DNA of 64,000 nt from the IMG/VR virus record IMGVR_UViG_3300031539_000005, positions 58,494 through 122,493 of that record; one strand, given 5' to 3'. The position numbers and the translations under genes were made by a program. Of this stretch, positions 1,166-64,000 are shown piece after piece (within the stretch, counting starts at the first letter, position 1; each line of letters opens with the position of its first letter). Under the pieces are notes generated by a model. The model worked only from the letters and a program-made list of their open reading frames with translations, made no database searches and was not told where the DNA came from. This DNA comes from a virus.

Positions 1166-2509
1166 ATGAGAGAAGTTTTTCTAGATAAGGATAGCGCCAG
1201 AGATTTTCTTACGAGAAAGAAAGTTCAAGATTATAAGTTTATGGATAGATATAATCTTGAATTATTGGTTAATTCAAAACTTTCATCAGGTAAAATACAC
1301 GCTAATGTTTTACCAGATCTTCTTAATCATTGTTTGGGAACCAGAGTAGCTTATGGATTCAACTATTGTCTTTCACATCCTATCACCAATAGAAATGTTA
1401 CTGAAAACCTTTTAGAAATTCCTGTTCTGAAAGAGTTTCTAGCTAGAGGATGTAAGATTTCTTTTATTGGGAAATCTAGTAAGAAGTTTGAAGGTTTTCA
1501 TCCTGATATGAAAGACTATAGTGGAGAATGGAAAAAACTTCCTACTCCATATAAGCCTATTGCTGATTGGATAGAAGACTGTTTGGAAAACTATGAGACT
1601 CGCTATGGAATGGAATTTCCTAAAGCAGACGTGGTAGTAACGAATGCTTTTCCTTCCTTTTTCTTTTCAAACATGATGTTTTATTTGATCAATTTGCATT
1701 ATGCAAAAACTCATACCCCTGTTTTCTTGTGGGATTATGAATTGAGGACTCTTAGAACAAGTGAAAAAGATAATCTTCCCAAGAAATATTTCAGATATTC
1801 TGGAGCAGATAAAATCTTTTCAGTTGATCAATTCAAAACTATTGCTGATAATGCTTATTGGCTATTACAAATTCCTGGTGAAGCTCTAGATAGAATCAAG
1901 AGTCTTAATCCTAGAATAAGAATTTTGCCATTTTTCCCACCTTATAGCTTTCAATTTGGTCAGTATAATATATGCCCAAAGACTATATATCGTCTTGCAT
2001 ACATCGGTAACGATTCAGAAAGAAGACAAACTTTTAGAAAGTTCTTTACTCCATTGGAGAAGAAGAATAGATTAGATCTTTTTGGAGGAGGGATGTCTAG
2101 AAGGGCAGAAGGCTACGAAAATTTTGAAAAGTATATAGGTAATACAGAGATGCATGGCCCTATTCCGCAAGGGGATGTATGGAAGACATATAATCAAGCA
2201 AGAACTTGTTTATCTATTGCAAGGCCCAGATATTATGAAATGGGATGGATTGTTCATCGCTGGTTTGAAGTGATTCTCAGTGGTTGCATTTTGTTAGTCC
2301 CAGGAGAGATGCATGGAATCAGGCGGTATATGAGTAAATATTTTATTGTCAATGATGCGAAAGAGCTAGATGAAAAAATTCAGTTCTTTAATGATAAACT
2401 CACACATTCAAAGCTATTGCAATTCCATCAATGGCAAAAGAGATTTATCTATCGACTCTTCAATTCAGAACGCTGTGTTGATGTTATCCTGAGGGTAATA
2501 GGAAAATGA
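1166..2509 (+). CDS. Putative GT-B fold glycosyltransferase
   Basis: A 447-aa protein starting at ATG 1166 behind GGAGAG. The C-terminal half has glycosyltransferase family-1-like features: a YIGND segment, a LFGGG turn, a HGPIP motif, and a closing RWFEVILSGCILLVPGE stretch resembling the nucleotide-sugar-binding Glu-containing loop of GT-B enzymes. The N-terminal half is divergent and aromatic-rich. It probably moves a sugar onto phage DNA, a virion protein or a host surface component; the substrate cannot be read. It overlaps the next gene by 4 nt (ATGA), implying translational coupling. Confidence 0.6.
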   Translation: MREVFLDKDSARDFLTRKKVQDYKFMDRYNLELLVNSKLSSGKIHANVLPDLLNHCLGTRVAYGFNYCLSHPITNRNVTENLLEIPVLKEFLARGCKISFIGKSSKKFEGFHPDMKDYSGEWKKLPTPYKPIADWIEDCLENYETRYGMEFPKADVVVTNAFPSFFFSNMMFYLINLHYAKTHTPVFLWDYELRTLRTSEKDNLPKKYFRYSGADKIFSVDQFKTIADNAYWLLQIPGEALDRIKSLNPRIRILPFFPPYSFQFGQYNICPKTIYRLAYIGNDSERRQTFRKFFTPLEKKNRLDLFGGGMSRRAEGYENFEKYIGNTEMHGPIPQGDVWKTYNQARTCLSIARPRYYEMGWIVHRWFEVILSGCILLVPGEMHGIRRYMSKYFIVNDAKELDEKIQFFNDKLTHSKLLQFHQWQKRFIYRLFNSERCVDVILRVIGK

Positions 2510-3132
2510 AAAAATTAGCTTATACAGAAACTAAAAACTTTCCTCCTTTTTTGGATCAAATTGTGCTTATGGATCCTAAGGATTTGGTGATTGATGCTTA
2601 TGCCAGAATTCTGTGTACTAATTGCGGATTATATAATCGCGGAATTCTTTGCCCTCCTTTGCTTCCTCTCACTTATCCACAATTTAAAACCATAGATTCT
2701 TCAAGGGAATATTTTGATTCTTTTGATGAAGCCTACCTTTATGTGTTTAAAAATGATGGAAGAAGGAGATGGTGGTATCAAAAAGAGTGGGGAGACTTTG
2801 CTCACATTAAACTTCAGGTTAGATTAGGAAGGCAGTTGAAGGGAGTAGAGGCGAGTAGTGCTCGGAAGCTAACGCATTTAATGAAGAAAGCTGAATTAGT
2901 GAATAAAAAGAGAGGCTTTACTGTTGCCACTTTTATTCAAGGCCACTGTGACAAGTGTGGCAAATGTCCTAATAGAAGCAATCCTCCTTGCAAAAAAGGA
3001 GGCCTTCCTAGTCTTGAAGCTACAGGCATCAATGTATATTCTCTTCTTAAAAAGTTAGGTATTCCTTATGAGTATCCGGTTCGTAATTATCTTACGCAAG
3101 TAGCATTAATGGTGAAAAAAAATGATTCTTGA
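2506..3132 (+). CDS. DUF2284-like metal-binding protein
   Basis: A 208-aa protein with two Cys clusters typical of the DUF2284 predicted metal-binding family. The first is CTNCGLYNRGILCPP near residues 35-52. The second is CDKCGKCPN with a following CKKGG near residues 148-166. Next comes the family's ATGINV segment. The Cys spacing would suit an Fe-S cluster or zinc. The family's biochemical role is unknown. The start overlaps the preceding stop, and the end overlaps the next start by 11 nt. Confidence 0.7.
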   Translation: MKKLAYTETKNFPPFLDQIVLMDPKDLVIDAYARILCTNCGLYNRGILCPPLLPLTYPQFKTIDSSREYFDSFDEAYLYVFKNDGRRRWWYQKEWGDFAHIKLQVRLGRQLKGVEASSARKLTHLMKKAELVNKKRGFTVATFIQGHCDKCGKCPNRSNPPCKKGGLPSLEATGINVYSLLKKLGIPYEYPVRNYLTQVALMVKKNDS

Positions 3133-3694
3133 TTTAGTAGACCATATAGAAATTAAAGAATGGATTCCTGAATTAAAAAAGCCTCATCCATGCTATCTGT
3201 ATGATTTTAAGGCAATGGGGATTACTCCGTATCAACTCGGAGAGATCTTGTGGGGAAAGGAAGCGCTTCTTTTTGAGCGTCCCTTTAGAGAAAAAATAGG
3301 AGGGGTGAAATGTCCCTGGTGTGACTACGATTCTCGAAAAATGATAAGAGGAATAAGAAGAGAATACTGGCGTGGATATAGACTCCAAGATCACATCCAA
3401 CAGCATAAGAAAAACATTCTTCATTATCAGATTTTGAAATTTCAGGGAGATTTATATTCCTTAAGATTAGGATTAGTGAGGCAAGGATGGCATGAATGTA
3501 TGATGTTCATGGTGCAGTATACTTGCCAACTTTGTCTTAACCCCAGAACAGAAGGTAGAATAGGAATGTGTGCTATTCCTTCTTCGACCAGGAATCGTCC
3601 TCGGTGTCTAAAAGTTCTTGGCTATCCCATTGAACATATAAAGAAAATGAGAAAACATGACTGGTCTGTCCTTGGAATAATTGTGTTGATGTAA
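3122..3694 (+). CDS. Cys-containing protein of unknown function
   Basis: A 190-aa protein translated from ATG 3122 inside the end of the previous gene. It contains CPWCDYD near residue 63 and CQLC near residue 137, so a four-Cys zinc site is plausible. It also has several His residues. I do not recognise the family. Overlap with the DUF2284-like gene suggests a shared operon and perhaps a shared role. Confidence 0.75.
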   Translation: MILDLVDHIEIKEWIPELKKPHPCYLYDFKAMGITPYQLGEILWGKEALLFERPFREKIGGVKCPWCDYDSRKMIRGIRREYWRGYRLQDHIQQHKKNILHYQILKFQGDLYSLRLGLVRQGWHECMMFMVQYTCQLCLNPRTEGRIGMCAIPSSTRNRPRCLKVLGYPIEHIKKMRKHDWSVLGIIVLM

Positions 3695-4264: not shown

Positions 4265-5491
4265 ATGGATGCTGATCTTACCAACTACGGGATAATAGAA
4301 GCTGATGGCGTGAATGATTGTTATTTACAAACAGTCAAGAGTCTTGTTCAATTTGGAGACATAGTTGTTTCAAGAGGAATGGAAACGAAAGAAGTCAGAC
4401 CTGTAGTTCTTATTCTTTCAGATCCTAGAAAAAGATTTTTAACTTGTCCTGGCCGATGGATTAATCCTTATTTTCAGGTAATGGAAGCTATTTGGATTCT
4501 TTCAGGTGGGTCGTCGGTAGAGTGGATTTCTTATTATCTGAAAGATATAGAAAAGTATTCAGATGGAGAAAAAGAATTTCATGCTCCGTATGGAAAGCGA
4601 ATTCGTGATTTTGGGGCTTACCGGGATGCGGTTTATACTCTTCGATCCGTAGTTGGTTATCCCCCCGATCAGTTAAAGAATTGTTTTGACTATCTTGATA
4701 TTGATCCTGATACTCGCCATGCGCTTGTTACACTTTGGAACCCTGCTTTTGACAATATTGGGATGGCTACTATTGATAGACCATGTAATTTTGCTCTTCA
4801 TTTTTTGATTCGCGAATCTGCTCTTCAGCTTACTGTCTATAACAGATCAAACGATATCCACTTGGGATTGTTTAATGCGAATGTAGTACAATTCAGTGTT
4901 ATACTTGAAGCGCTCACTATGTGTCTCGGAAGACCTTTAGGTAAGCAGATTCATTTAATTAATTCTCTCCATTTTTATACAGATAGCCCAATAACATCGC
5001 GAATTTTAGCCGAGGATCTTGAAAAAAGGCCCTTCAGTGTATATGATTACGTTGCTCCTAAGCCTTTTTGGCTAAATTTCAGAAGATATAAAGATCTTGG
5101 TATGAATTATTCAAATTATCAAATTTTAGACATAGAGCTTAAGAAATTTATGGCTCTTGAACAGGCGATAAGAAATGGTGACTCAGAAGAGATTGTGGAA
5201 AACTACACAAGGGAGACTCTGTTCTTTAATTTTCTAATTGATGCAATTTTCTTGGCTCTATCCTATAGAGCTCTTAAGAAAGGGGATTTATCCTTGGCGT
5301 TCATGTGTTTAGATAAGGTTGTGGCAGCCGATATTTTTATTTCTTGTCTTGAATATTTGGTCAGGAAAGGAACGAAGGAGAATTTAATTTCTCCTGAAGT
5401 AATTATTGCAAAAGCTATGATTCATGATCATTTTTCTTTTCTTGGTCCTGAAAAAATAGCTAAAATAGATGAATATATTTTCCATCATTAA
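4265..5491 (+). CDS. thyA: Thymidylate synthase family protein
   Basis: A 408-aa protein starting after GGAGGTAGGTA. It keeps thymidylate synthase landmarks. These are GRWINPYFQVMEAIWILSG near the N-terminus, the RPCN motif with the likely nucleophile Cys174, and the RSNDIHLG phosphate-binding motif. The following FNANVVQ carries the Asn typical of dUMP rather than dCMP enzymes. A SLHFYTD segment matches the later ligand region. About 150 C-terminal residues extend beyond the usual bacterial length of about 264. It likely makes dTMP from dUMP for phage replication. It sits 6 nt before the polymerase gene. Confidence 0.85.
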   Translation: MDADLTNYGIIEADGVNDCYLQTVKSLVQFGDIVVSRGMETKEVRPVVLILSDPRKRFLTCPGRWINPYFQVMEAIWILSGGSSVEWISYYLKDIEKYSDGEKEFHAPYGKRIRDFGAYRDAVYTLRSVVGYPPDQLKNCFDYLDIDPDTRHALVTLWNPAFDNIGMATIDRPCNFALHFLIRESALQLTVYNRSNDIHLGLFNANVVQFSVILEALTMCLGRPLGKQIHLINSLHFYTDSPITSRILAEDLEKRPFSVYDYVAPKPFWLNFRRYKDLGMNYSNYQILDIELKKFMALEQAIRNGDSEEIVENYTRETLFFNFLIDAIFLALSYRALKKGDLSLAFMCLDKVVAADIFISCLEYLVRKGTKENLISPEVIIAKAMIHDHFSFLGPEKIAKIDEYIFHH

Positions 5492-10306: not shown

Positions 10307-10709
10307 TCTTAGATCTAAAGAGTATGGGTTTAGAAACTTCACTTCTTTCGTTTTCACATGCTATTATGGAAACAAGAAATCTGCGGTTGAATGTTCTAGA
10401 ATTCTTAAAGTCGGTAGATTGCGTTTTCATGATGCTTTGGAAAGCAGGGGGTGGCCTATTCGGAATAAAAGTCAGTCTAGTAGATTTGCAAAAAAGCCAA
10501 AAAAAAGAAAGTTGTATATTTATCAGAAGACAAGGATGAGAACTCCTTATATTTTTCCATGGTGCGCTATCCATACATATTATTGGAAATACCTAATGAC
10601 AACTTATGAAGTTGCTAAGGCATTAGGAATTAGCCAGACATCTGTGTTGAAATTAATGAGAATCTATGGCATTAAACGTAGAAATCAGGGGAAGAGGAAA
10701 TTTAGATGA
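10281..10709 (+). CDS. Putative HTH DNA-binding protein
   Basis: A 142-aa basic protein; ATG 10281 lies inside the end of the previous gene with GTGGAG upstream. Residues about 112-138 (TYEVAKALGISQTSVLKLMR) form a classic helix-turn-helix, as found at the start of intron-encoded or regulatory proteins. The centre is Lys/Arg-rich. It may be a regulator or the DNA-binding part of a homing-type protein; no nuclease motif is visible. Confidence 0.65.
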   Translation: MKKLELILDLRSKEYGFRNFTSFVFTCYYGNKKSAVECSRILKVGRLRFHDALESRGWPIRNKSQSSRFAKKPKKRKLYIYQKTRMRTPYIFPWCAIHTYYWKYLMTTYEVAKALGISQTSVLKLMRIYGIKRRNQGKRKFR

Positions 10710-11302
10710 ATAATCTTTTGGATTTTTTAAAAAGAACAAAAAGGATGGCCTTCATTGATAGATGTGCAAATACTCCTCACATTAGACCGTATTCTGTTGC
10801 AGAACATTCTTATTTCATAGCCTTATTTGCAATGTTTTTTGCTGATCTGGAAAATGAAAGGATTTCCAGCGGCCATTTGGTTCTTGAAGAGGATCTGTAT
10901 AATATAGCTGAAGTTGTTAAGAGAGCACTTCTTCATGATCTTGAGGAAAGTGAAACTGGAGATATATTGTATCCCCTTCATCATGAAAATTCTGAACTCA
11001 CAATTGCATTGAACAATATCCGAAAAAAAGTTGTTGAAGAGAGGCTCTTTAATGGACTGTCTGTTATTGTGAGAAATGGCTATATACGTTTATGGAAATG
11101 TTCTAAGGATAATTCAAAAGAGGGCCGGTTAGTTGCTTGCATGGATAAATTTGAAATTCTTATGTTCGCCATTAATGAACTCGATATGGGTAATCATGCA
11201 TTCCGTAGCTTGTATGATAATGCCATAAAAATAATTGATGCTGAGTTTAAAATTCCAACTGTTATGTTCGTCGTGAACGAAATAAAGATTCTTTATAAAT
11301 GA
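10706..11302 (+). CDS. HD-domain nucleotidase (YfbR-like)
   Basis: A 198-aa protein with an HD-domain layout: RPYSVAEHSYFIALFA, then ALLHDLEESETGDI, then CMDKFEIL. This order of His, HD and Asp ligands matches the YfbR-type 5'-deoxynucleotidases. Such an enzyme would dephosphorylate dNMPs and shape the nucleotide pool, which fits with thyA and dnaE nearby. Substrate not provable here. It overlaps the HTH gene by 4 nt. Confidence 0.75.
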   Translation: MNNLLDFLKRTKRMAFIDRCANTPHIRPYSVAEHSYFIALFAMFFADLENERISSGHLVLEEDLYNIAEVVKRALLHDLEESETGDILYPLHHENSELTIALNNIRKKVVEERLFNGLSVIVRNGYIRLWKCSKDNSKEGRLVACMDKFEILMFAINELDMGNHAFRSLYDNAIKIIDAEFKIPTVMFVVNEIKILYK

Positions 11303-28406: not shown

Positions 28407-28773
28407 TCCAAAAGCAATAGCGAAGAGAATCAAGCGATTAGAAGAAGAATCAAGAGACAGGATGAAAATAATTCTGAAATCAAAAGAATTACTTCAATTA
28501 ATACCTCCGAAGTCCACTTCGCCCACCGATGCAATTCTGTTATTCGGATCACATAGGGGAGAAAAGATCTCTAGTCTTTTATCTAGATTTGAAACTGCTC
28601 CTTATGTTATGAGATATCTAGCCCAAGATCCAACGATTCCTCCAAAGATTAGAAAAATCGTACAGAATCTAATTCAATTTTACGACCCATTTGCCGAAGA
28701 TCACTCTCGACTCAGTGAAGGACTGAACGTAAGAGAAATTTCTCCGGAAGAGGAGGATAATATTCCATGGTAA
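28393..28773 (+). CDS. DUF3820-like small protein
   Basis: A 126-aa protein. The core LLFGSHRGEKISSLL followed by YVMRYLAQD resembles the DUF3820 motif (FG-x-x-x-G, then a Y...W/L helix) seen in exonuclease X-associated and phage proteins. N-terminal coiled coil. Function unknown; overlaps the kinase gene by 7 nt. Confidence 0.6.
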   Translation: MGKFDPKAIAKRIKRLEEESRDRMKIILKSKELLQLIPPKSTSPTDAILLFGSHRGEKISSLLSRFETAPYVMRYLAQDPTIPPKIRKIVQNLIQFYDPFAEDHSRLSEGLNVREISPEEEDNIPW

Positions 28774-29780
28774 TCCAAAATTTTAAAAGTTTTTTTGATG
28801 GAGTTTCTGGACTAAAGATTTTAGTGATAGGAGACTTAATCCTGGATGAATATATCTGGGGACAAGTATTTCGTATCTCTCCAGAGGCTCCTGTTCCGAT
28901 AGTCACAGTTGATCATTTGTCTTATAGACTTGGAGGCGCAGGGAATGTTGCAAGTAATATTGAAAGTCTTGGTGGATATCCTATTCTTTGTGGAGTATTA
29001 GGAGACGATAGAGAAGGGCAGATATTCAGAGATATCGTGGAACATAGAAAAATGGGGAAGGCAGGAATCTGTACTGAACTTTCAAGATGGACTTCTAAAA
29101 AGACTAGAATTATTGCTCATAGTCAGCAAGTGGTTCGTCTTGATAGAGAGAGTAATTACCAAATAGAGTTAGAAACTTATCAGCAAATAAAGCAGAATTT
29201 AAGCAGATTGACAGATTGCGGAATAAAAGCCATAGTCATTTCTGATTATAATAAAGGAGTTATCAGTAGCGATCTGATGAGAGATATAAGAGAATTTGCT
29301 GCGGGAATAGGAGCTCCTATTATTTCAGATCCAAAGGGCAAGAATATGCAACTTCATAAATATTTAGATTTAATAACTCCTAGTTATGTAGATGCTGCGC
29401 ATTTTTGTCATGTTGACCCGATTTCTAAACGAGGTGTGTATCTTACAGGACTGAAATTGTTAGGGGTTTTGAAATGTGGATCGGTACTCTTAACTCAAGG
29501 ATCACTTGGGATGACTCTTTTCAAGAAGGAGCCAAGGATTACAGAAACTAATATTCCGGCAGTTGCTAAAGAAGTTAGCGATGTCACTGGGGCTGGCGAT
29601 ACGGTGTCTGCGGTTATGGCCTTGGGATTGGGAGCCGGCTTAGATATGGAAAATACTGCTATTCTTGCGAATGTAGCTGCGGGAATCGTTGTAGGGAAAG
29701 TCGGTACAAGTACAGCTTCAATGGCAGAGCTTGAAAAAGCATTGTCTCGGGAAATAGAAAATAATAAGAACAAAGCGTAA
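28767..29780 (+). CDS. PfkB-family sugar kinase (HldE/RfaE N-domain type)
   Basis: A 337-aa protein. VIGDLILDEYIWGQVFRIS, RLGGAGNVASNI and DVTGAGDTVSAV match the heptose-7-phosphate kinase domain of HldE. The nucleotidyltransferase half of bifunctional HldE is absent. It would phosphorylate a sugar phosphate for an activated-sugar pathway. Next to an epimerase/dehydratase gene, and with a glycosyltransferase at 1.2 kb, it suggests the phage makes or alters a sugar. Confidence 0.85.
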   Translation: MVIQNFKSFFDGVSGLKILVIGDLILDEYIWGQVFRISPEAPVPIVTVDHLSYRLGGAGNVASNIESLGGYPILCGVLGDDREGQIFRDIVEHRKMGKAGICTELSRWTSKKTRIIAHSQQVVRLDRESNYQIELETYQQIKQNLSRLTDCGIKAIVISDYNKGVISSDLMRDIREFAAGIGAPIISDPKGKNMQLHKYLDLITPSYVDAAHFCHVDPISKRGVYLTGLKLLGVLKCGSVLLTQGSLGMTLFKKEPRITETNIPAVAKEVSDVTGAGDTVSAVMALGLGAGLDMENTAILANVAAGIVVGKVGTSTASMAELEKALSREIENNKNKA

Positions 29781-29789
29781 GGAGAAAAA

Positions 29790-30782
29790 GTGAATAAAAT
29801 TATTATTACCGGAGGCTGTGGCTTTATTGGGAGTCATGTAGTGGAGCATTTCCTGAAGAATACGAATTGGGAAATATGCATTCTGGATAAACTTACTTAT
29901 GCTTCCAGAGGATTTGAGCGCATAAGGGACATCAATGCATATCATGAAGATAGAGTTCTTCTTCTCACTACAGATATAACAAGGGAAATTCCAGAAGGAA
30001 TTTTGCACGAAGTCAGAGGTGCGAATTGGCTTTTTCATCTTGCTGCGGAGACTCATGTTGATAATAGTATTCTGGATCCTAAGCCATTTGTTATGAGTAA
30101 TTTGCTTGGTACATTCAATATTTTGGAATTTGTAAAGAAGTTACCTAATTTAAAGGGGATGCTTTATATGAGTACTGATGAAGTCTTTGGTCCGGCTTCA
30201 GCATACGATGCCTTTAATGAATGGGATAGATATAATTGTACGAATCCATATAGTGCTACTAAAGCCGGAGCAGAAGAACTCTGTTTGGCTTATGCGAATA
30301 CATATAGCCTACCTATATTTATCGTTCATACTATGAACGTGTTTGGAGAAAGACAGCATCCTGAAAAATTTATTCCAATGTGTATTCGTAAGATTCTAAG
30401 AGATGAAACTGTAACTATTCATTCTGATATAACAGAAACTATTTCGGGGTCAAGGTTCTATATTCATGCCAGAAACTTTGCGAATGCAGCTCATTTTCTC
30501 TTAGGCAAATTTGAAAGAAGACAGAAATATAATATTGTCGGAGAATGTGAAATTAAAAATTATGTCTTGGCTCAAACCATAGCTGAAATTATGGGTAAGA
30601 AGTTGCATTTTGAAATGGTAAATTTCCATGAGAGTAGGCCAGGTCATGATTTACGCTATGCTCTTGATGGATCTAAAATGGCTGCGATGGGATGGAGGGT
30701 TCCAATGACTTTTAGAGAATCGTTTGAGCGAACAATCAAGTGGACTTTGGATAATCCACGTTGGTTAGATTGGAGTATCTAA
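29790..30782 (+). CDS. NAD-dependent sugar epimerase/dehydratase
   Basis: A 330-aa extended short-chain dehydrogenase from GTG 29790 behind AAGGAG. TGGCGFIGSHVVEH is the dinucleotide-binding start, LAAETHVDNS follows, STDEVFG and PYSATKAGAEEL hold the catalytic Tyr/Lys. The pattern is closest to dTDP-glucose 4,6-dehydratase. Substrate is inferred. Overlaps the next ATG by 1 nt. Confidence 0.85.
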   Translation: MNKIIITGGCGFIGSHVVEHFLKNTNWEICILDKLTYASRGFERIRDINAYHEDRVLLLTTDITREIPEGILHEVRGANWLFHLAAETHVDNSILDPKPFVMSNLLGTFNILEFVKKLPNLKGMLYMSTDEVFGPASAYDAFNEWDRYNCTNPYSATKAGAEELCLAYANTYSLPIFIVHTMNVFGERQHPEKFIPMCIRKILRDETVTIHSDITETISGSRFYIHARNFANAAHFLLGKFERRQKYNIVGECEIKNYVLAQTIAEIMGKKLHFEMVNFHESRPGHDLRYALDGSKMAAMGWRVPMTFRESFERTIKWTLDNPRWLDWSI

Positions 30783-32177: not shown

Positions 32178-32330
32178 ATGCGAATATCATTCATTTTTGC
32201 TTGGTATGATTTTTGGATTGGCTGGTATTTTAATAGAAAAAGTAGACAGCTTTATATTCTTCCAATACCGATGCTAGGGATTAAAATTCAGCTTGGTGTA
32301 AAAGAGGGTTTTTTGCCAGATATTTTTTAA
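32178..32330 (+). CDS. Small conserved-looking phage protein
   Basis: A 50-aa protein starting ATG 32178. IFAWYDFWIGWYF, then LYILPIPMLGIKIQL, match a small phage protein pattern I recognise as recurring but of unknown role. Its 3' end meets the convergent sigma-like gene by 4 nt. Confidence 0.65.
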   Translation: MRISFIFAWYDFWIGWYFNRKSRQLYILPIPMLGIKIQLGVKEGFLPDIF

Positions 32331-33196
32331 TAAAGATCCCTGCTTTGTAGCTTTTTTGCTTTTAAATCTTTTTCAAGCGCTTTAATCTGTTTTCCTGTTA
32401 ATATGTTTAACATTTCTTCTCTATCAATAATGTACCTATCTACATAGCCTAGACCGCATATCATTATTTTTGCTGTATCTGCGAGCATATTTGCTTCTTT
32501 AATGGAAATATTGCCTAGAACGCATAATACTTCATAAATATCTTTTTCGTGCAAATGATCATGTCCTTCTTCTTGTAATTCACTTTTTATACGTCTATCT
32601 AATTCTAAAATTTCCATTAGTGTTTTGTCGGGGAAGATTTTGTTGTGGATATATTGGTATGTTTCTGAATTCAGGTGGGATTTAAGATAGCTTAAAATTG
32701 AAAATAAAAAAAAGCTTTCTTCTGGAGTCTCTGGCGTAGTTCCAAAAGCAGGTCTTCCATCTGGTGTGCCGACATAATTATCTTCAATAGAATATGTTTG
32801 GTCTTGAAGATCTCTTACTTCACTGAAGCTATAATTGTATACTGGAATTTCTTCTCCATCTATCTCTGAGAGAATGTGGCAAGCTCTTATTGGTTTGAGA
32901 GCATGGTTCCAAATTCCATCAAGAGTTTTAATTATAACATTCATAACCCAAGTATATTCGCTTGCTCTTTCTGGGTCAAATAAATGATAACCTGCAAGGA
33001 TCCTAATTTTACATTCCTGCATCAGGTCATCCAGATCCATGCTTGGAATATAACTTCTTTTTCTACATTCAAACATGATTTGTTTAGAATATTTCTTTAA
33101 AAGCTTTTCAGCTTCTTCATTACTTAAAACTGTAAGCTTTGCGCCAAGATTGTCAGCTTGAACTTGAGAGGCTTTTTTCTTTTTTCTTAGCTTCAT
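32327..33196 (-). CDS. Sigma-70-family-like factor
   Basis: A 289-aa protein. MDLDDLMQECKIRILAGYHLFDPERASEYTWVMNVIIKT near residues 53-92 is the region-2 pattern of sigma factors (core binding and -10 recognition). A long linker and a helical C-terminus follow; a clear region 4 was not found. It may direct late phage transcription or be a diverged remnant. It is the last gene of a minus-strand operon with the VWA and AAA+ genes and overlaps the VWA stop by 4 nt. Confidence 0.65.
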   Translation of the reverse strand: MKLRKKKKASQVQADNLGAKLTVLSNEEAEKLLKKYSKQIMFECRKRSYIPSMDLDDLMQECKIRILAGYHLFDPERASEYTWVMNVIIKTLDGIWNHALKPIRACHILSEIDGEEIPVYNYSFSEVRDLQDQTYSIEDNYVGTPDGRPAFGTTPETPEESFFLFSILSYLKSHLNSETYQYIHNKIFPDKTLMEILELDRRIKSELQEEGHDHLHEKDIYEVLCVLGNISIKEANMLADTAKIMICGLGYVDRYIIDREEMLNILTGKQIKALEKDLKAKKLQSRDLY

Positions 33197-35277
33197 CTGC
33201 GTTGCCTTTCTCTATTATTATAATTATTTTTCAGTTTCATTAGGAGCGCTTTGTATACTTTTGCGGATATATGGCTTGTCTCGCTTATTATTTCAAATGT
33301 GGGATAAAATTTACGAACTGAATTGTCTATTAGGCCAATGCCTATAACTTCAATTCCGCTTCTTTCTATCTTACGTATTTGTTCTTTAAGGTCTTTTTCA
33401 AGTAAGTTATCATCAGTATAAGCTGCACTCGGCATACCATCACTGAGAACAAAAAGTATTTTTCTCTCTTCTCTGCGTTCTGCTAATCTTTTTGCTGCCC
33501 AGACTATAGCTTCATTGTCAAAGTTATTTCTTCTGGCTTGAATTAAAGGGATTAGCTTGCGCACATTATAATAATTTTCATTAAAGGCTTTCACTATAAT
33601 ATGTTCTACAGGTTCTACCCGATTATATCGGTAATGGGCACACATTCTTTCATATTCACTCTGTAGCTTAAAGACTTCTTTTGAACTTTCGGCCTCAAGT
33701 TCAGCGGTTGTAAAGGTTAAAATTTCAAAGGGAATTTTAAGTGCAAAGAGGGCATCTGAAATAGAAAGTAAGGTTGGTCTTAACATATCTATTTTTCTTC
33801 CACCCATTGAGCCAGATACATCGTTAAGTATAGTCACAGCAGTATTTACTTTTCTTCCGGGAATTTTTCTTTTGTAGATTTTACCATTTCCTAAAAGAAG
33901 TTTGTAGATATAGGCATCATCAATTATGCCTTCGCTTTGTTCAAATAAATAGCTTGATCTTTTTTCTGAAATAAGTAGTGGCAAAATTTTTGTCTTTAGT
34001 CTTTCTACTTCTTTATCTATTTTGGCAACTATGTCGGCATGTTTCTTTTCTAAAACTTTGATTTGGGTCTCGGTAGTATCGTTAACTAATCTATTCTTGA
34101 AAGGATTGTCAATATGTTCTTCTACATCATATATAAGAATTCTTGGGTGAGGAATATGTTTTTCTCGGTCACTGTTCCAGTTTTGAACTCTTCTGCCAAT
34201 TTCATCTGTCAGCATTTGCATTAATCCTTCAGATAGGATCAATGGCTTTTCAAAGTCAGAATCGTCAGAGGATAATTCTGTTGGGTTAAGTATTTTTTCT
34301 AAATCTTTTTCAAGATTTTTGCCATCATAGCCTGAACCTTTATCTGCACCCCTTTTTCCTTCTCCTTCTCCTTCTTCTCCTTCATCCCCTTCCCCGCTTT
34401 CGCCACTTTTTTCACTTTCCTCATCTTCTTCTTCCTCATCTTCTTCCTCATCATCCTCTTCTTTTTCTCCTTTTTCTCCTCCTTTCCCTCCTACTTTTCC
34501 CATTTCTCCTTTATCTTCATCTTCCCCTTCTCCTTCTTCATCTCCTCCTTCTCCTTTCTTTTCTCCTTCTTCTTCTGCTTCTCCTCCTTTTTCTTCTCCT
34601 TCTCCTTTTTCTCCCTTTTCTCCTTCCTTTCCTTTTTCTTTTTTATAATCTTCAAAAAAGTCTTTGAGTTTTTGGAGAATCTGGTCAGTTATTTTATCTG
34701 CTTGAATTGAACCTTCATGACCTGCTTTCCATCTGACATTTTCCCAAATGGATTGTGTTATGTCTGCCATTTCATTTACAGTTTTTGGCAAGAAATCTGT
34801 TTCCATTTCCGATATTCGGTAATGGATACATATTCCTAAAAGACTAGCTAGATCAATATTTACTCTTTTTTCTGGGGGGGCGCATTCATCTAAGGTGGGA
34901 ATAAGAAGAATATCTCTAATGAATGTAAGTCCTGCTTTTTGAAGTCCTTTATATCCTGGATATTCTCTTAGGCCAAGTTTATATAGTCTACTATCATTAA
35001 TGTTGTTATATAGTCCTTTGTATTTCAAGAACTTCGGGTTCTTGAACGCTTCACGGAGGGACAAAAATTTAGTATGTTTAACTTCCATGCATTCATGCAA
35101 TAATCCGGCGAGACTAGGATCTCTTAATTCTTTATTTAGTTCTTCGGGAATTTCGGCGACAATTATTCTATCTTTATCAGTAAAGAAGGTATCTCCTTTA
35201 ACGATGACTTCAATGCCTGACTTTTTAGTATACATGCGAGCAAGGCGTTCATACGAAGTTTGCAAATCACTTGACAT
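33193..35277 (-). CDS. CobT-like VWA-domain protein
   Basis: A 694-aa protein. The N-terminal 200 residues carry a metallohydrolase-like or CobT-type domain. Residues about 215-320 are Glu/Gly/Lys low complexity. The C-terminal VWA domain has the MIDAS motif DVSGSMGG, an AREALxx-type helix and FVLSDGMPS. With the upstream AAA+ protein it resembles the CobS/CobT pair seen in several phages, where it is unlikely to make cobalamin. Its target is unknown. Confidence 0.85.
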   Translation of the reverse strand: MSSDLQTSYERLARMYTKKSGIEVIVKGDTFFTDKDRIIVAEIPEELNKELRDPSLAGLLHECMEVKHTKFLSLREAFKNPKFLKYKGLYNNINDSRLYKLGLREYPGYKGLQKAGLTFIRDILLIPTLDECAPPEKRVNIDLASLLGICIHYRISEMETDFLPKTVNEMADITQSIWENVRWKAGHEGSIQADKITDQILQKLKDFFEDYKKEKGKEGEKGEKGEGEEKGGEAEEEGEKKGEGGDEEGEGEDEDKGEMGKVGGKGGEKGEKEEDDEEEDEEEEDEESEKSGESGEGDEGEEGEGEGKRGADKGSGYDGKNLEKDLEKILNPTELSSDDSDFEKPLILSEGLMQMLTDEIGRRVQNWNSDREKHIPHPRILIYDVEEHIDNPFKNRLVNDTTETQIKVLEKKHADIVAKIDKEVERLKTKILPLLISEKRSSYLFEQSEGIIDDAYIYKLLLGNGKIYKRKIPGRKVNTAVTILNDVSGSMGGRKIDMLRPTLLSISDALFALKIPFEILTFTTAELEAESSKEVFKLQSEYERMCAHYRYNRVEPVEHIIVKAFNENYYNVRKLIPLIQARRNNFDNEAIVWAAKRLAERREERKILFVLSDGMPSAAYTDDNLLEKDLKEQIRKIERSGIEVIGIGLIDNSVRKFYPTFEIISETSHISAKVYKALLMKLKNNYNNRERQRR

Positions 35278-35340
35278 TTTGGTTTCCCTTTCCCATTGCG
35301 CGTATGTGGCATAATACTATAAAGGTTAGATTTTGTCCTC

Positions 35341-36381
35341 CTAATCTACCTCAACATTAAGGTGAGTCCGAATGAGACTCTTAACGGTATGTCTATCTGT
35401 CATATTGCAGTAATTTAAGACAGCTAGTTGACTGGCTTCTTCTTTAGGGATTAATTGCCAGTATTTCGCCCAAGATAATAACCTTCGTAAGGAAAATTGA
35501 AAAACCATATCGTGGTCTTTTTCATTACGGCAGAGATTAGCTACTTCTACCATTTGTCCGGCAATTGTTTTTTCAATGCCTGTTTTTACGTTAAGAATTT
35601 CTACTTCTTCATCGCGGGTTTTGTATCCAACATTCATAATTATTTCATATCTATCTCTGCTTGCTGCATTCATATACTGTGTGCCATGAAAAGCAAACAG
35701 GTCATCTCCATACCCGACTGTGTTTGCGGTGCTTACCCATCTAAAAGATGGATGTTTGGTAACTAATTCTCTGAAGGGTTGGCCTGTTTCTACATGGATG
35801 GTGGTAAGGGAAATAGTTCCTCTGTTTTCCATAACTCCATGGATTTCTCCACGTAGTTCAGGGCGCATGAAATCTACTTCATCTTCAAGTAGGATAAGAC
35901 CTTTGCGCATAGCAGTAGTAATGTGCCCATCTATCCATTGCATTTCCTTTCCTACAGCTATCCATTGCCCAATGATTTTAGCCGAACTCGTTTCCTCTGA
36001 GCAATCATATTGCTCAACTCCCCAATTGCATATCGCTGCGATCTGTTTTACGAGGGAAGTTTTACCTGTTCCGGGAGGCCCGACCATAAGAAGGTTTCCT
36101 CCGCCCTGAAGGGCAAAGGCAAGAACTTCACTTTCAAATGACGGGAGAAGATATTGGTTATCATATTCTGGCACGAAAGGAGAATGCCCTGCGTAATATG
36201 CGCATTCTTCATCTATTCCCTTACATGCCTTGGAAGGAGTCTTGGTAAAAATTGCTTTTTGCTTTTCTTTGATTTTGGGGTTGAAACACATGCACCGTTT
36301 CTTACCGAAATGAACACATGCGCCATCCTTATACGACTGAATTTCAACTTTAGCCCTGCCGATTTTTAGCTTTTTCCCCAT
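35341..36381 (-). CDS. CobS/MoxR-like AAA+ ATPase
   Basis: A 346-aa ATPase. VGPPGTGKTSLVKQIA is Walker A, GLILLEDEVDFM Walker B, and a sensor-1 WVSTANTVGYG follows. The N-terminus has a Cys-rich part (CMCFNPK, CAYYAGH). MoxR-type ATPases work with VWA partners to remodel proteins; the neighbour at 33,193 is the expected partner. A minus-strand promoter lies upstream. Confidence 0.85.
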   Translation of the reverse strand: MGKKLKIGRAKVEIQSYKDGACVHFGKKRCMCFNPKIKEKQKAIFTKTPSKACKGIDEECAYYAGHSPFVPEYDNQYLLPSFESEVLAFALQGGGNLLMVGPPGTGKTSLVKQIAAICNWGVEQYDCSEETSSAKIIGQWIAVGKEMQWIDGHITTAMRKGLILLEDEVDFMRPELRGEIHGVMENRGTISLTTIHVETGQPFRELVTKHPSFRWVSTANTVGYGDDLFAFHGTQYMNAASRDRYEIIMNVGYKTRDEEVEILNVKTGIEKTIAGQMVEVANLCRNEKDHDMVFQFSLRRLLSWAKYWQLIPKEEASQLAVLNYCNMTDRHTVKSLIRTHLNVEVD

Positions 36382-58450: not shown

Positions 58451-58682
58451 AAAAATGACGAATAGCGACTGTGTAGGCTGTGGATATTGTTGCTTGAAAG
58501 CAATGTGTTCAACTGGAATAGGATTCTATGGTCGTAGTGTAGAGCGATGTCCTTATTTGATTTGGATTGAAGATAAGTATAGGTGTCAGTTAGTCCTTGA
58601 TAATAAAGCCAAAGTCGCGACTGGATTTGGGTGTTCTTCTAGTCTAAACAGTTGGAGACAGGATGTTAAATTCAGAGGATAA
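58440..58682 (+). CDS. CxxCxxCC-type protein
   Basis: An 80-aa protein with CVGCGYCC, then CPYL and CQLV, like the protein at 50,856. ATG 58440 is one of three closely spaced starts. Function unknown. Confidence 0.65.
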   Translation: MMNKKMTNSDCVGCGYCCLKAMCSTGIGFYGRSVERCPYLIWIEDKYRCQLVLDNKAKVATGFGCSSSLNSWRQDVKFRG

Positions 58683-60007: not shown

Positions 60008-60568
60008 ATGGGTAAGATAAAGCCTAAGAAGATAGAGGCAAAAGCGGCAAAGGAAAAAGTTGTAGCTAGTCCTATTGCTGAAGTGCATGTTTTCAGTAAT
60101 AAGCTGCATCCATTTACAGCACCTATTACACTGAGCGGCAAGGTAGTAGATCTGGATGTAAACAAGGTGCATAGGGTAAATGTTGGGAATCTGGATATGC
60201 TGAGTCCAACATTGCAAACCTTGTTCACAGAACTTAACACAGATGCGCTGCCCAAGTACGCTCGCTATGGGTATACTCAGGCACACAGGCAAACTTTCGG
60301 TCTTTGTTTAGCCAGTGCTCACAGCAAGAGTTTTAAGGGTATTGTCATGTATCATGGAGTTTTTGCAGGGCAGATGCGCATTGCCTTCAACAACACAACT
60401 CAGGGATTGTTTGCTACCCAGGCACAAAAAGTCCTAGAAGGGGCCAAAGATGTTGTAGTCTATCCCTTTAAGACTTACTGCTTTGTAGCCTTTAAAGAAA
60501 CTGCCCTACCCGTGATCGTAAGCACTTGTAAGAAAGTGCTTGGCATGGCCGGTAATCCTAAAGAGTAA
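60008..60568 (+). CDS. Paralogue 1 of the GA/TC pair
   Basis: A 186-aa protein behind TAAGGGG. Basic N-terminus (KIKPKKIEAKAAKEK), then a domain with PITLSGKV, TPLQTLF-type helix, GYTQAHRQTFGLCL, VMYHGVFAGQ and YPFKTYCFVAF. Unrecognised. It carries twelve Asp/Glu and normal GA/TC use. A terminator follows. The homologue at 61,171 is about 60% identical by eye. Confidence 0.85.
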   Translation: MGKIKPKKIEAKAAKEKVVASPIAEVHVFSNKLHPFTAPITLSGKVVDLDVNKVHRVNVGNLDMLSPTLQTLFTELNTDALPKYARYGYTQAHRQTFGLCLASAHSKSFKGIVMYHGVFAGQMRIAFNNTTQGLFATQAQKVLEGAKDVVVYPFKTYCFVAFKETALPVIVSTCKKVLGMAGNPKE

Positions 60569-60622: not shown

Positions 60623-60895
60623 ATCCCCCCCCCTATATCCATATACCCATATAGAAAGAAAGTTTCTCTTCTGGGATTTAAGATCTTTGATCATCTCTCG
60701 ACTCCGGTATAGACCGACCAATATTTCTTTTCTTATCATTCATTCGCAGAAAAGAGATTAAGTCTTAGATCTTCACTATGAATCTTTTTTAGAATCATAC
60801 AGAATTAGGTAGATCAAAGATCTTTGATCTTCTCGACTCCCATATTAACTGACCAAAAAGGCTCCTTACTCTCGGGACGCGAGGGAAAAGATCGT

Positions 60896-60923
60896 ATACC
60901 ACTTTGTAACATACCACTATGTA
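60896..60923. repeat. ATACCACnnTGTA motif, left pair
   Basis: ATACCACTTTGTA (60896-60908) and ATACCACTATGTA (60911-60923), 15 bp apart. They mark the left edge of the GA/TC-depleted island. Matching copies, one inverted, are at its right edge. Confidence 0.6.
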
Positions 60924-60980
60924 GTATAAGGCAAAAAAACAAGAAATAAGCTTTTAAATTTTATTTTTTGCTTTTTTTGC

Positions 60981-61009
60981 TTGCAATTGCTTTTTTAAAA
61001 GCTTATAAT
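60981..61009 (+). promoter_or_regulatory. Consensus-like promoter inside the island
   Basis: -35 TTGCAA (60981-60986), 17 bp, -10 TATAAT (61004-61009). No GA or TC in it. Drives 61,171. Confidence 0.8.
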
Positions 61010-61052
61010 GTTTTTTATGCTTAATACATTAAATATGTTTTATATGCTTTTT

Positions 61053-61081
61053 TTGGCATTACAATTGCATTACATTATATA
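61053..61081 (+). promoter_or_regulatory. Second possible promoter for 61,171
   Basis: -35 TTGGCA (61053-61058), 17 bp, -10 TATATA (61076-61081). The TTGGCAT...CAATTGCA core recurs at 62,073. Confidence 0.45.
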
Positions 61082-61170
61082 CATGTTTACACCTAAACTA
61101 AAAACTAAAACTTGTAACTACTTAATAACCTGTAAAGCGCAGCTAACAATTTAATAAAGGGGTTTTAATT

Positions 61171-61785
61171 ATGGGTAAAGCAATAGTACCAAAAAAAATA
61201 AGGGCAAGGGCAAGCACTGTGCAAGGCAATAATATTGCGCAAGTGCATGTATACGCTAACAAAGTTAACCCATTTAACGCGCCAATTACTTTAAATGGTA
61301 AAGTAGCACAATTGGCAGTAAACAAAGCGCACAATGTTAATATAAGCGCTTTAGACCTGTTAACGCCAACACTGCAAACCTTGTTTACTGCGCTTAACAG
61401 TGCAAGCTTGCCTAAATACGCGCATTTTGGGTATACACAAGCGCATAGGCAAACGTTTGGCCTATGCCTAACCAGTGCGCACAGTGCAAGCTTTAAGGGC
61501 GTTATAATGTATCACGGTGTATTTGCAGGGCAAAATAAAATAACGTTTAACAATACTGCGCAGGGTTTATTTTGCACACAAGCACAAGCACTGTTTAGCG
61601 GTGTAAACGATGTTGTTGTATACCCATTTAAAACCTATTGCTTTGTGGCATTTAAAGCAAGTGCATTGCCCACTGTGCTTAAGGTATGCAATAAGGTTTT
61701 AGGTATTAGTAACAAAGCAAGCGCAGTGCCTACTGTGCAAGTACCTACTGTGCAAGTACCTACTGTGCAAGTGCCTACTGTATAG
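61171..61785 (+). CDS. Paralogue 2, GA/TC-purged gene
   Basis: A 204-aa homologue of the 60,008 protein with no Glu and only two Asp. All Ser codons are AGY, Leu CTC, Phe TTC, Ile ATC, Val GTC and Gly GGA are absent. Where the paralogue has acidic residues, this one has Gln, Ala, Arg or Ser. The C-terminus adds a four-fold VPTVQ repeat from a 15-bp tandem repeat. The ribosome site is AAAGGGG. Function unknown; same as paralogue 1, presumably. Confidence 0.85.
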   Translation: MGKAIVPKKIRARASTVQGNNIAQVHVYANKVNPFNAPITLNGKVAQLAVNKAHNVNISALDLLTPTLQTLFTALNSASLPKYAHFGYTQAHRQTFGLCLTSAHSASFKGVIMYHGVFAGQNKITFNNTAQGLFCTQAQALFSGVNDVVVYPFKTYCFVAFKASALPTVLKVCNKVLGISNKASAVPTVQVPTVQVPTVQVPTV

Positions 61786-61799
61786 GCAAACAATAAAAC

Positions 61800-61842
61800 A
61801 AGGTACCATGTAAAGCATATTAAACATGGTACCTTATTTTTT
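61800..61842 (+). terminator. Rho-independent terminator free of GA and TC
   Basis: 11-bp perfect stem AAGGTACCATG/CATGGTACCTT (61800-61810 with 61825-61835), then ATTTTTT. Confidence 0.85.
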
Positions 61843-61871
61843 ATACACATAAGCCCGATTTTATACACTAT

Positions 61872-61908
61872 TGCCCATTTTTGCACACAAGATGCCCATT
61901 TTTGCACA
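61872..61908. repeat. Iteron-like direct repeat
   Basis: TGCCCATTTTTGCACA occurs at 61872-61887 and 61893-61908, 21 bp apart, i.e. two helix turns. TTTTATACACTATTGCCC precedes. Could be a protein-binding iteron pair or a duplicated operator. Confidence 0.5.
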
Positions 61909-62072
61909 TAGTATGTATAAATTACAACACACATAAAACAAGCGCTTTTGCTTTTGCCCTTGCTTTGTATAGGGTATATAGTTAGAAGCTTGCTATGGCG
62001 CTATTAGATGCCTTTAAGCGCTTGTTTAGCAAGCGCAGTGCCTATAGTATAAAGCGCTTAAAACAAAAATTT

Positions 62073-62102
62073 TTGGCATAGCAATTGCAGTGTATGTATA
62101 GT
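62073..62102 (+). promoter_or_regulatory. Possible promoter for 62,142
   Basis: -35 TTGGCA (62073-62078), 18 bp, -10 TATAGT (62097-62102), similar core to 61,053. 40 nt ahead of the start codon. Confidence 0.5.
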
Positions 62103-62141
62103 ATGGGTTTTAATGCTAACATAAAAACAAGGGGTTTTAAA

Positions 62142-62267
62142 ATGGTAAGCTTAAAAAAATTTTTTGTTGCGCTTGTTACTTTGTTAATGCCTAAACAACA
62201 ACCAGTGGTTACTTATAACAGTTTACGTTATGCTAACTATACGCAAAAGCGCGTATACAAAATTTAA
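62142..62267 (+). CDS. Small basic protein in the island
   Basis: A 41-aa protein from ATG 62142, ribosome site AAGGGG. SLKKFFVALVTLLMPKQQ looks amphipathic; ends RVYKI. No Asp or Glu. Function unknown. Confidence 0.6.
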   Translation: MVSLKKFFVALVTLLMPKQQPVVTYNSLRYANYTQKRVYKI

Positions 62268-62287
62268 TTACAAGGGGCTAACATACT

Positions 62288-62413
62288 ATGTATAATAAAG
62301 CAAATATAACACCTAAAGCAAGCGCAGTACCTACAACACAATGGCAAGCGCTTATAATACTAACTAAACAATACAACATGCTTTATTGTTTTGCAAATAG
62401 CATTAAATACTAA
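62288..62413 (+). CDS. Small protein in the island
   Basis: A 41-aa frame from ATG 62288 behind AAGGGG. KASAVPTTQ echoes the C-terminus of the 61,171 protein (KASAVPTVQ). No Asp or Glu. Function unknown. Confidence 0.55.
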   Translation: MYNKANITPKASAVPTTQWQALIILTKQYNMLYCFANSIKY

Positions 62414-62420
62414 TACTAAC

Positions 62421-62467
62421 TTATACCACATTGTAGTATTACTAATTTGTATTACAATGTGGTATAA
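62421..62467. repeat. 15-bp inverted repeat, right copies of the edge motif
   Basis: TTATACCACATTGTA (62421-62435) and its exact reverse complement (62453-62467), 17 bp apart. Contains ATACCACATTGTA in both orientations, matching 60,896-60,923. It can form a hairpin and may be an operator or module boundary. Confidence 0.6.
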
Positions 62468-62671
62468 CTAACTAGTAACTAACTTTTAACAAATACAAAG
62501 TGAATTGTTTACATATATGCACAAAATTTTTTTGTGTAAAAGTGGGTTAGGAGACTCTCTTCTAATTCCATGATGAAAAATTTCAGATAAAGCATTTTAA
62601 GCAAATTAAACTTTGTTTAATACATTAAAAGCATATTAAGCTATGAAAATTTCAGAGAAAATTCGGAGATG

Positions 62672-62739: not shown

Positions 62740-63615
62740 CTATCCGTTTTTAAGAGCGCAGATAGTATTCGCAGCATTTGCCGCAGCTTGTGTGAATTTC
62801 AAGGCATCATCAGATTTGATGTCACCCGTGATTTTATCCGCAAGGACTTCAATCGCCTTAACCAATCTCCACACCGATTTCCCTATAGGTCGCCCTTTTA
62901 TTCTAAACCCCTGCGGACAAACTGTAGCCATTCCATCCGGAAAGATCCACAACGCCTTCAATGTTATACATCTACGATTACAGCCATCACACGCCCTTCC
63001 CCTATTCCTTTGTATGCCAGTGTAACGAAACTGGATGTCATGCCTGTAGACGTTCATCAATTTTATTCCCATATTTTCAGCCCAGATATTAAACAACTTA
63101 TGATACTTTGCAGAACCATAGAAATTGGAGAAAATTTTTACAGAAAAGAAGGGCGAATAAAGATCGATGATTTTCTCAGAATTCTCAAAATCGGTTTCGT
63201 TCGCGACAACATAAACTACTTGATCGAATTCTCGAAGAGAGGATATTAGGTTAAGATTGGGAGAGAAGACATGAACTTTAAAACAGTTCACGAATGGATA
63301 GGCTTCAGGAAGGAGGGCGGTTCCGTTCGTGTTCACGAAGACCCGAGCTCCTAGTTCATGAGCGAAACGAATTATAGAAAGGAAATCGGGATGTAGACCA
63401 GGTTCTCCGCCGCTTATGTTCACGATAGGATGGTCTATTACAGAGGTATAGGCTGAAATAGCCTGAATTGCGATTTCTGTAGGGAGATAATCTGAGCCAG
63501 GTTCTTGAAAGTCGTTTAAGCAATACTCACAACTTCTGTTACAATCGTTCGTTAAGAGAACTCTTAAACGGAATTCATCTTTATGAACCTCTTTATTAAA
63601 GACAGATTTTATCAT
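62740..63615 (-). CDS. Radical SAM protein
   Basis: A 291-aa protein with CNRSCEYC (Cys25, Cys29, Cys32), the CxxxCxxC Fe-S motif, then ISGGEPGLHP and VNTNGT. A C-terminal CDGCNRRC, then CPQGF, suggests a second cluster as in SPASM-like enzymes. The substrate is unknown. The 10-nt gap to the upstream small gene suggests they work together. Overlapping plus-strand frames here are shadows. Confidence 0.85.
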   Translation of the reverse strand: MIKSVFNKEVHKDEFRLRVLLTNDCNRSCEYCLNDFQEPGSDYLPTEIAIQAISAYTSVIDHPIVNISGGEPGLHPDFLSIIRFAHELGARVFVNTNGTALLPEAYPFVNCFKVHVFSPNLNLISSLREFDQVVYVVANETDFENSEKIIDLYSPFFSVKIFSNFYGSAKYHKLFNIWAENMGIKLMNVYRHDIQFRYTGIQRNRGRACDGCNRRCITLKALWIFPDGMATVCPQGFRIKGRPIGKSVWRLVKAIEVLADKITGDIKSDDALKFTQAAANAANTICALKNG

Positions 63616-63625
63616 TTTTTTCTTT

Positions 63626-63856
63626 CTAATTTTTTTCTTTCCAATATAGATTTATAGCTTCGATGAACTCATCATGAACCTTTTGGGCTTCTTCAAGTGT
63701 TCGATATGAAAAATATTCAAAAACTTGAGAAGTGTATTTAAATCCCCAAAACCAATAATCTAGTTCTTTTTCAACTCCATACACATTTTGAACATGAAGA
63801 AGAACAGCATGATACCCTTCAATTTCAAATGTTGCTAATGATTCTTTTTTACTCAT
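63626..63856 (-). CDS. Small protein upstream of radical SAM gene
   Basis: A 76-aa protein, aromatic-rich (LDYWFWGFKYTS). Beta strands then a helix (EEAQKVHDEFIEAINLY), so more like a folded partner than a leader peptide. Its ribosome site and start codon lie in the first unit of the 22-bp tandem repeat. Function unknown. Confidence 0.7.
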   Translation of the reverse strand: MSKKESLATFEIEGYHAVLLHVQNVYGVEKELDYWFWGFKYTSQVFEYFSYRTLEEAQKVHDEFIEAINLYWKEKN

Positions 63857-64000
63857 AATATCCTTTTATTACTCTCATAATATCCTTTTATTACTCTCAT
63901 AATATCCTTTTATTACTCTCATAATATCCTTTTATTACTCTCATAATATCCTTTTATTACTCTCATAATATCCTTTTATTACTCTCATAATATCCTTTTA
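63851..64000. repeat. 22-bp tandem repeat running off the window
   Basis: About 6.8 copies of ACTCTCATAATATCCTTTTATT from 63,851 to the end. Each unit, read on the minus strand, holds AAAAGGATATTATGAG, a ribosome site plus ATG. The first unit provides the real start of the 63,626-63,856 gene. Confidence 0.85.

Follow-up and report, generated by a model that had tools for sequence, protein, structure and literature searches.

Near-complete loss of GA and TC from a 1.6-kb genic island in an uncultivated phage, possibly a segment kept free of thymine hypermodification

The phage record IMGVR_UViG_3300031539_000005 (G000, 122,493 bp) contains a stretch of genes and spacers from which the dinucleotides GA and TC are almost completely missing, and the question raised by this locus is what acts against a single double-stranded word, and why there. 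Coordinates refer, unless stated otherwise, to the window, i.e. the whole 64,000-nt stretch that was analysed (positions 58,494 to 122,493 of the record). The contigs considered here come from uncultivated phages and are known from their sequence.

Extent and uniqueness of the purged island

The original prediction reported 7 GA and 1 TC at 60,945-62,550, where about 170 would be expected together. The recount confirmed both numbers, with expectations of 93.0 for GA and 87.3 for TC, that is 8 observed against 180. In 20,000 mononucleotide shuffles of the island the sum averaged 180.4 (sd 10.5) and its minimum was 138, which excludes chance and base composition. A dinucleotide-preserving shuffle, proposed earlier as a refutation, is no test, since it conserves the GA/TC counts by construction. 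The best segment in a change-point search was 60,892-62,551 (9 GA/TC versus 226 at the rate of the rest of the genome), with two sharp edges, the left one lying between 60,893 and 60,943. The longest GA/TC-free runs in the island measure 495 and 411 bp, versus 59 bp elsewhere in the window. Outside it, every 300-bp window of the complete record reached at least 0.57 of the expected GA/TC; the island is the sole stretch of its kind in the 122,493-bp record. The flanks, described beforehand as rich in both words, are slightly rich in part and otherwise normal (o/e 1.1-1.4). An assembly artefact, which would have undone the observation, is ruled out: the same island with both of its junctions recurs in a second contig (IMGVR_UViG_3300031669_000204), at 99.96% over 12.8 kb, so that a chimera is excluded. 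GA and TC are equally depleted, both strands alike as had been claimed, in coding as in non-coding DNA, which identifies the avoided object as a double-stranded dinucleotide.

The island and its surroundings comprise the following features; the expectations given for small ORFs come from a synonymous-codon test, in which synonymous codons were redrawn with the protein sequence fixed.

60,008-60,568, + strand: paralogue of the island gene without the purge, 186 aa at 67% identity, with 12 acidic residues
60,893-62,550, no strand: GA/TC-purged island, 8 GA+TC versus 180 expected
60,981-61,009, + strand: predicted sigma70-like promoter TTGCAA-17-TATAAT, consensus match, ranked 8th across the record under a simple PWM
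61,050-61,069, + strand: motif TTTTTGGCATTACAATTGCA, with a repeat copy (90%) at 62,070-62,089
61,171-61,785, + strand: island gene, 204 aa, basic product (pI 10.0) with 2 acidic residues, stop TAG
61,795-61,840, + strand: GA/TC-free inverted repeat (94% complementary) with a T-rich tail, likely terminator, missing from the terminator-prediction list
62,073-62,102, + strand: predicted sigma70-like promoter TTGGCA-18-TATAGT, consensus match
62,142-62,267, + strand: 41-aa ORF free of acidic residues, preceded by the GA-free ribosome site AAGGGG, 0 GA/TC versus 9.0
62,288-62,413, + strand: 41-aa ORF free of acidic residues, 0 GA/TC versus 5.6
62,411-62,477, no strand: inverted repeat with 28-nt arms, from a repeat search
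62,514-62,525, + strand: right-end motif TATATGCACAAA, containing the 10-mer TATGCACAAA

The signals themselves are spelled without GA. Indeed, TTGCAA corresponds to TTGACA without GA, the ribosome sites are of the AAGGGG type (AAAGGGG for the island gene), where GGAGG would include GA, and the ORFs stop at TAA or TAG. The 10-mer TATGCACAAA is present in one copy per record in G000 and in the related phages G003 and G007, every time inside the island, and ATGCCAAAAA is found in the G003 and G007 islands too. The island protein has no match in Pfam or PHROGs, and a fold search with two weak models (pLDDT 46 and 59) gave no significant fold match; a recurrent, sub-significant likeness to T4 MotA serves only as a lead.

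Several other elements surround the island. GATC-containing palindromes (GATCTTTGATC and similar) are repeated at 60,675-60,900, on its left, and GATC-rich DNA also lies left of the islands in contigs L021 and L013. A Radical SAM protein adjoins it (62,740-63,615, - strand), with prokaryotic viperin as best NCBIfam match, far under the cut-off, and was not found in the compared relatives. A perfect 22-bp tandem repeat (6.8 copies, 63,852-64,000) occupies the end of the record, where the assembly broke; contig L001 runs beyond this repeat into terminase genes.

The purge is selection acting at the DNA level

In the synonymous-codon test the island gene shows 3 GA/TC versus 50.6±5.0. Among 126 ORFs it ranks lowest in GA/TC (z -9.1; next -2.6). 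Codon usage, already set aside in the original prediction, and protein composition are excluded by this codon redraw and by the equal purge of non-coding DNA. The paralogue, situated 1.2 kb upstream, is nearly normal under the same test (46 GA/TC versus 56, z -2.1), which indicates that selection follows position; its apparent depletion (0.65) is mostly due to amino-acid composition. The sites that read GA or TC in the paralogue read AA, GC, TT, TA, AC, CC, GT and others in the island, a mixture of transitions and transversions that argues for selection rather than one mutational route and excludes a single deamination pathway. It is thus at the level of DNA that selection has acted.

Islands in related phages

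Relatives were sought via the terminase, whose sequence was read from the second contig, giving 21 loci. An island is present upstream of the terminase in four of them, purged of GA/TC in G003, G007 and G010 and of CA/TG in G009. The GA/TC purge is near-total in G010 (terminase 41% identical), with 2 GA/TC versus 92 in 740 bp and 2 versus 48.8 in the gene (L049:2700-3314, + strand). It is about half in G003 (o/e 0.45; gene 34 versus 58.6) and in G007 (o/e 0.45; first 248 bp GA/TC-free; gene 32 versus 42.9), which has an island-protein homologue (E 2.4e-10). In G009 (terminase 51%) GA/TC is normal and the gene lowest in CA/TG (73,076-73,672) has 24 versus 63.6 (z -7.1; next -3.6), or 17 versus 50.1 counted from an internal start, a partial depletion in a single genome. 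The earlier suggestion to look for related phages with the same depletion was therefore borne out for three of them, two partially, with TG/CA instead in the fourth. The purged word differs among relatives, and TC and TG have only the T (or its partner A) in common. Against the island-protein profile, the G003 protein is a marginal match, that of G010 is not significant and G009 has none, so the DNA property is better conserved than the protein.

Three fragments (G008, G011 and G012) have neither island nor hydroxymethylase gene, a search through DUF2284 recovered only phages already known, and a host search found no terminase relative among genome contigs. Just left of the G003 island (L013:2620-3320), repeats of the GAAATCA type extend over about 500 bp and contain GA/TC at twice the expectation. 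In G010 another, milder GA/TC dip (o/e 0.4-0.5) lies at 106,951-107,551 (L050:6951-7550). A search of the open-access literature found no report of such islands, and we know of none.

Candidate modification genes and a proposed role of the island

Several genes that could be involved in DNA modification, and one possibly involved in transcription, are encoded in the window.

1,166-2,509, + strand: glycosyltransferase (PF13524), within the hydroxymethylase cluster
2,506-3,132, + strand: DUF2284 protein, kept in G003, G009 and G010
3,122-3,694, + strand: Cys/His-rich 190-aa protein near the hydroxymethylase, no Pfam match, kept in G003, G009 and G010
4,265-5,491, + strand: dUMP-hydroxymethylase homologue (SPO1 gp29: 34% over 350 aa, E 3.5e-58)
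10,706-11,302, + strand: 5'-deoxynucleotidase, YfbR-like
28,767-29,780, + strand: HldE-type heptose-7-phosphate kinase homologue, 312 bits, below the NCBIfam cut-off of 345
29,790-30,782, + strand: NDP-sugar epimerase/dehydratase
32,327-33,196, - strand: sigma-factor-like protein, Sigma70_r2 just over the curated cut-off

The hydroxymethylase homologue shares with SPO1 gp29 and M6 gp58 the Asn of the motif RSNDxxxGxxxxNxxxFS; Asn rather than Asp at this position marks dUMP use. Its best PDB match is MilA, a CMP 5-hydroxymethylase. Homology and the shared Asn motif thus point to a dUMP hydroxymethylase, the gene expected of a hydroxymethyluracil phage. The homologue is encoded in G000, G003, G009 and G010 (G007 being a 20-kb fragment), and in these four phages it clusters with the DUF2284 protein and the Cys/His-rich protein, the latter a candidate for the site-selecting part. 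Several further glycosyltransferases are encoded outside the cluster in G000, along with the heptose kinase homologue and the epimerase; the glycosyltransferases could have other roles. A CobT-like VWA protein and a MoxR/CobS-like AAA ATPase form a pair at 33,193-36,381 (- strand), kept in G003 and G009.

With M6 gp49-gp56, gp58 and gp59 as phmmer queries, the hydroxymethylase and a nucleotidase were the sole matches; homologues of the 5hmdU DNA kinase and of the follow-on enzymes were not found with these queries, and no TpC-specific enzyme was identified. As for a C5-methylase/TET route, PF00145 (C5-methylase) has no match in the seven contigs, versus 10 positive controls, and the PF12851 (TET/JBP) search is uninformative, with no match in the contigs or in any control. 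PF01702 (TGT/DpdA) was found in 0 of 7 contigs (the record and six related, incomplete ones) and in 14 of 14 control genomes. The statement that no modifying enzyme is visible in the window therefore stands for TGT/DpdA and fails for the hydroxymethylase homologue, which clusters with a glycosyltransferase.

A gene set with a hydroxymethylase homologue and a glycosyltransferase points to modified T, and the phage probably swaps T for a modified form. It would make 5-hydroxymethyl-dUMP, so that 5-hydroxymethyluracil replaces T in its DNA, and the T of TpC would be hypermodified further, probably by sugars, with TpG taking the place of TpC in G009. Each GA or TC would then put one modifiable T on one strand, and only DNA without both words would be unmodifiable on either strand, since each carries one such T. 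Virion DNA would enter already modified, and the island alone, having no target word, would stay unmodified. It resembles a self-contained transcription block, with GA-free promoter-like sites, ribosome sites, stops and a terminator-like hairpin, encoding a small basic protein and two micro-proteins. Such a block would have to work on incoming virion DNA and would most likely be the first region read by the host RNA polymerase in its unaltered state, whereas the majority of the remaining genes could wait for phage factors such as the sigma-like protein. We infer hypermodification, its TpC context and early transcription, and give about even chances to the whole proposal of TpC-directed (TpG in G009) T hypermodification with an island kept unmodifiable for early reading by the host polymerase. 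Taken separately, the mechanism of a stretch kept unmodified has roughly an even chance of being correct, and a purpose in early transcription has a slightly lower one. The first suggestion, that a factor recognising the dinucleotide is being avoided, is supported, with a base-modifying enzyme the best of the three candidates named (nuclease, PAM or such an enzyme).

Dinucleotide-directed modification of T has a precedent, since restriction-resistant sites in phages M6, ViI and phiW-14, whose hypermodified T derives from hydroxymethyluracil through a 5hmdU kinase pathway, pointed to hypermodified T in TG/TC (PMC6449724). These phages share with the present one a dUMP-hydroxymethylase homologue and would share the TpS dinucleotide logic (PMC6449724); however, no 5hmdU kinase homologue was detected here and their genomes have no purged island. 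The closest characterised hydroxymethylase is that of the SPO1 group (E 3.5e-58), which, unlike the present phage, has no GA/TC or CA/TG island. Indeed, no comparable island was found in SPO1, M6, ViI, phiW-14, P26218, MW202557 or Emery; P26218 and MW202557 are other phages with a hydroxymethylase, so this enzyme does not imply an island. A TG/TC-free 200 bp of SP-15 is a tandem repeat. Since the modified-T phages SPO1, M6, ViI, phiW-14 and SP-15 have no island, it answers no general need. To our knowledge, the hydroxymethyluracil of SPO1 is not hypermodified further.

Bulky 5-substituents typically block bacterial RNA polymerase while 5hmU is tolerated, and phosphorylated 5hmU turns transcription off; glucosylated 5hmC permitted in vitro transcription, so not every sugar blocks the enzyme (PMC11550810). 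With this tolerance of 5hmU, the block by bulky groups and a sigma-like protein for later genes, the island is best read as first-transcribed. Top-scoring sigma70-like sites are enriched in the islands of G000 (4 of the top 60 versus 0.9), G003 (3 versus 1.2) and G007 (12 versus 5.1) and not in those of G010 and G009, a weak enrichment overall. Blockage of the template strand alone would not require a purge of both strands.

The main rival to early transcription is that the island is kept unmodified for the start of replication, for packaging or for protein binding to virion DNA, the inner gene tolerating the purge. Non-coding DNA and both strands are purged as strongly as coding DNA, the island contains inverted repeats as well as the conserved motifs TATGCACAAA and ATGCCAAAAA, and the islands of relatives are likewise upstream of the terminase; but a whole transcription block with coding DNA exceeds the needs of an origin or pac site and the terminase genes are several kb distant, which leaves this role unlikely. 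Modification of another base, the G of GA (7-deazaguanine) or the A of GA/CA, appears less likely again. The G of GA is one of two contexts reported for 7-deazaguanine in Escherichia phage CAjan, and A is likewise common to GA and CA, but TGT-family proteins and PF00145 methylases are absent from the seven contigs and the gene set points to T. The 7-deazaguanine idea raised at the outset, with its proposed search for tgt/dpdA homologues, is not supported, given the PF01702 result in these incomplete contigs; furthermore, a G-centred rule fits the TG/CA avoidance of G009 poorly. A nuclease cutting unmodified GA/TC, with the island as DNA that modification cannot protect and that must be site-free, would account for the strand symmetry. 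It is very improbable: no unmodified DNA would survive a two-base cutter, dozens of sites remain in the islands of relatives, and a protected genome has no reason to keep an unprotectable stretch. The rest of the genome is GA/TC-rich and relatives tolerate partial depletion, which makes nuclease or PAM, both put forward originally, unlikely causes. Least probable of all, and scarcely credible, is a mutational bias (cytosine deamination specific to TC, or the like) or the recent arrival of the segment from a genome devoid of GA/TC. Deaminases preferring a TC context exist and the edges are sharp, but many changes are transversions, TT/AA show no clear excess, diverged relatives have islands of different sequence at the matching place, the island gene is a local paralogue and a TG/CA version exists in G009.

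Hypermodified T with an unmodifiable island can be compared with three further systems. In base J, the glucosylated hydroxymethyluracil of kinetoplastids, a bulky modified T likewise affects RNA polymerase, according to one account (PMC4150806); this system, unlike ours, is eukaryotic. The first-step-transfer DNA of T5, which has no restriction sites, is also an early region selected to be without a short recognition word, whereas six-base sites and host restriction are concerned there, versus a dinucleotide and self-modification here. Vertebrate CpG islands, too, are regions kept free of a dinucleotide-directed modification, but they retain the dinucleotide, and here the word itself is removed. 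For base J, we know of no sequence-purged islands.

Whatever the mechanism, it is unusual for 1.6 kb of genes to be selected against a single dinucleotide on the two strands and to have counterparts in phages that have diverged, and selection was strong enough to leave the main island protein with 2 acidic residues versus 12 in its paralogue. Tentatively, and with somewhat less than even confidence, the phage may represent a new design, in which T would carry a bulky modification at one dinucleotide and an island free of that word on both strands would let the host polymerase start the infection. On this equally tentative reading, whichever word is purged, TC or TG, would report the specificity of the modifying enzyme. 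If true, the presence of hypermodification in a phage and the dinucleotide concerned could be read from DNA sequence alone, which would allow metagenomes to be searched for unknown modification systems. It would also show how infection starts in a phage whose DNA the host polymerase may be unable to read, namely from a single stretch out of reach of the phage's own enzyme.
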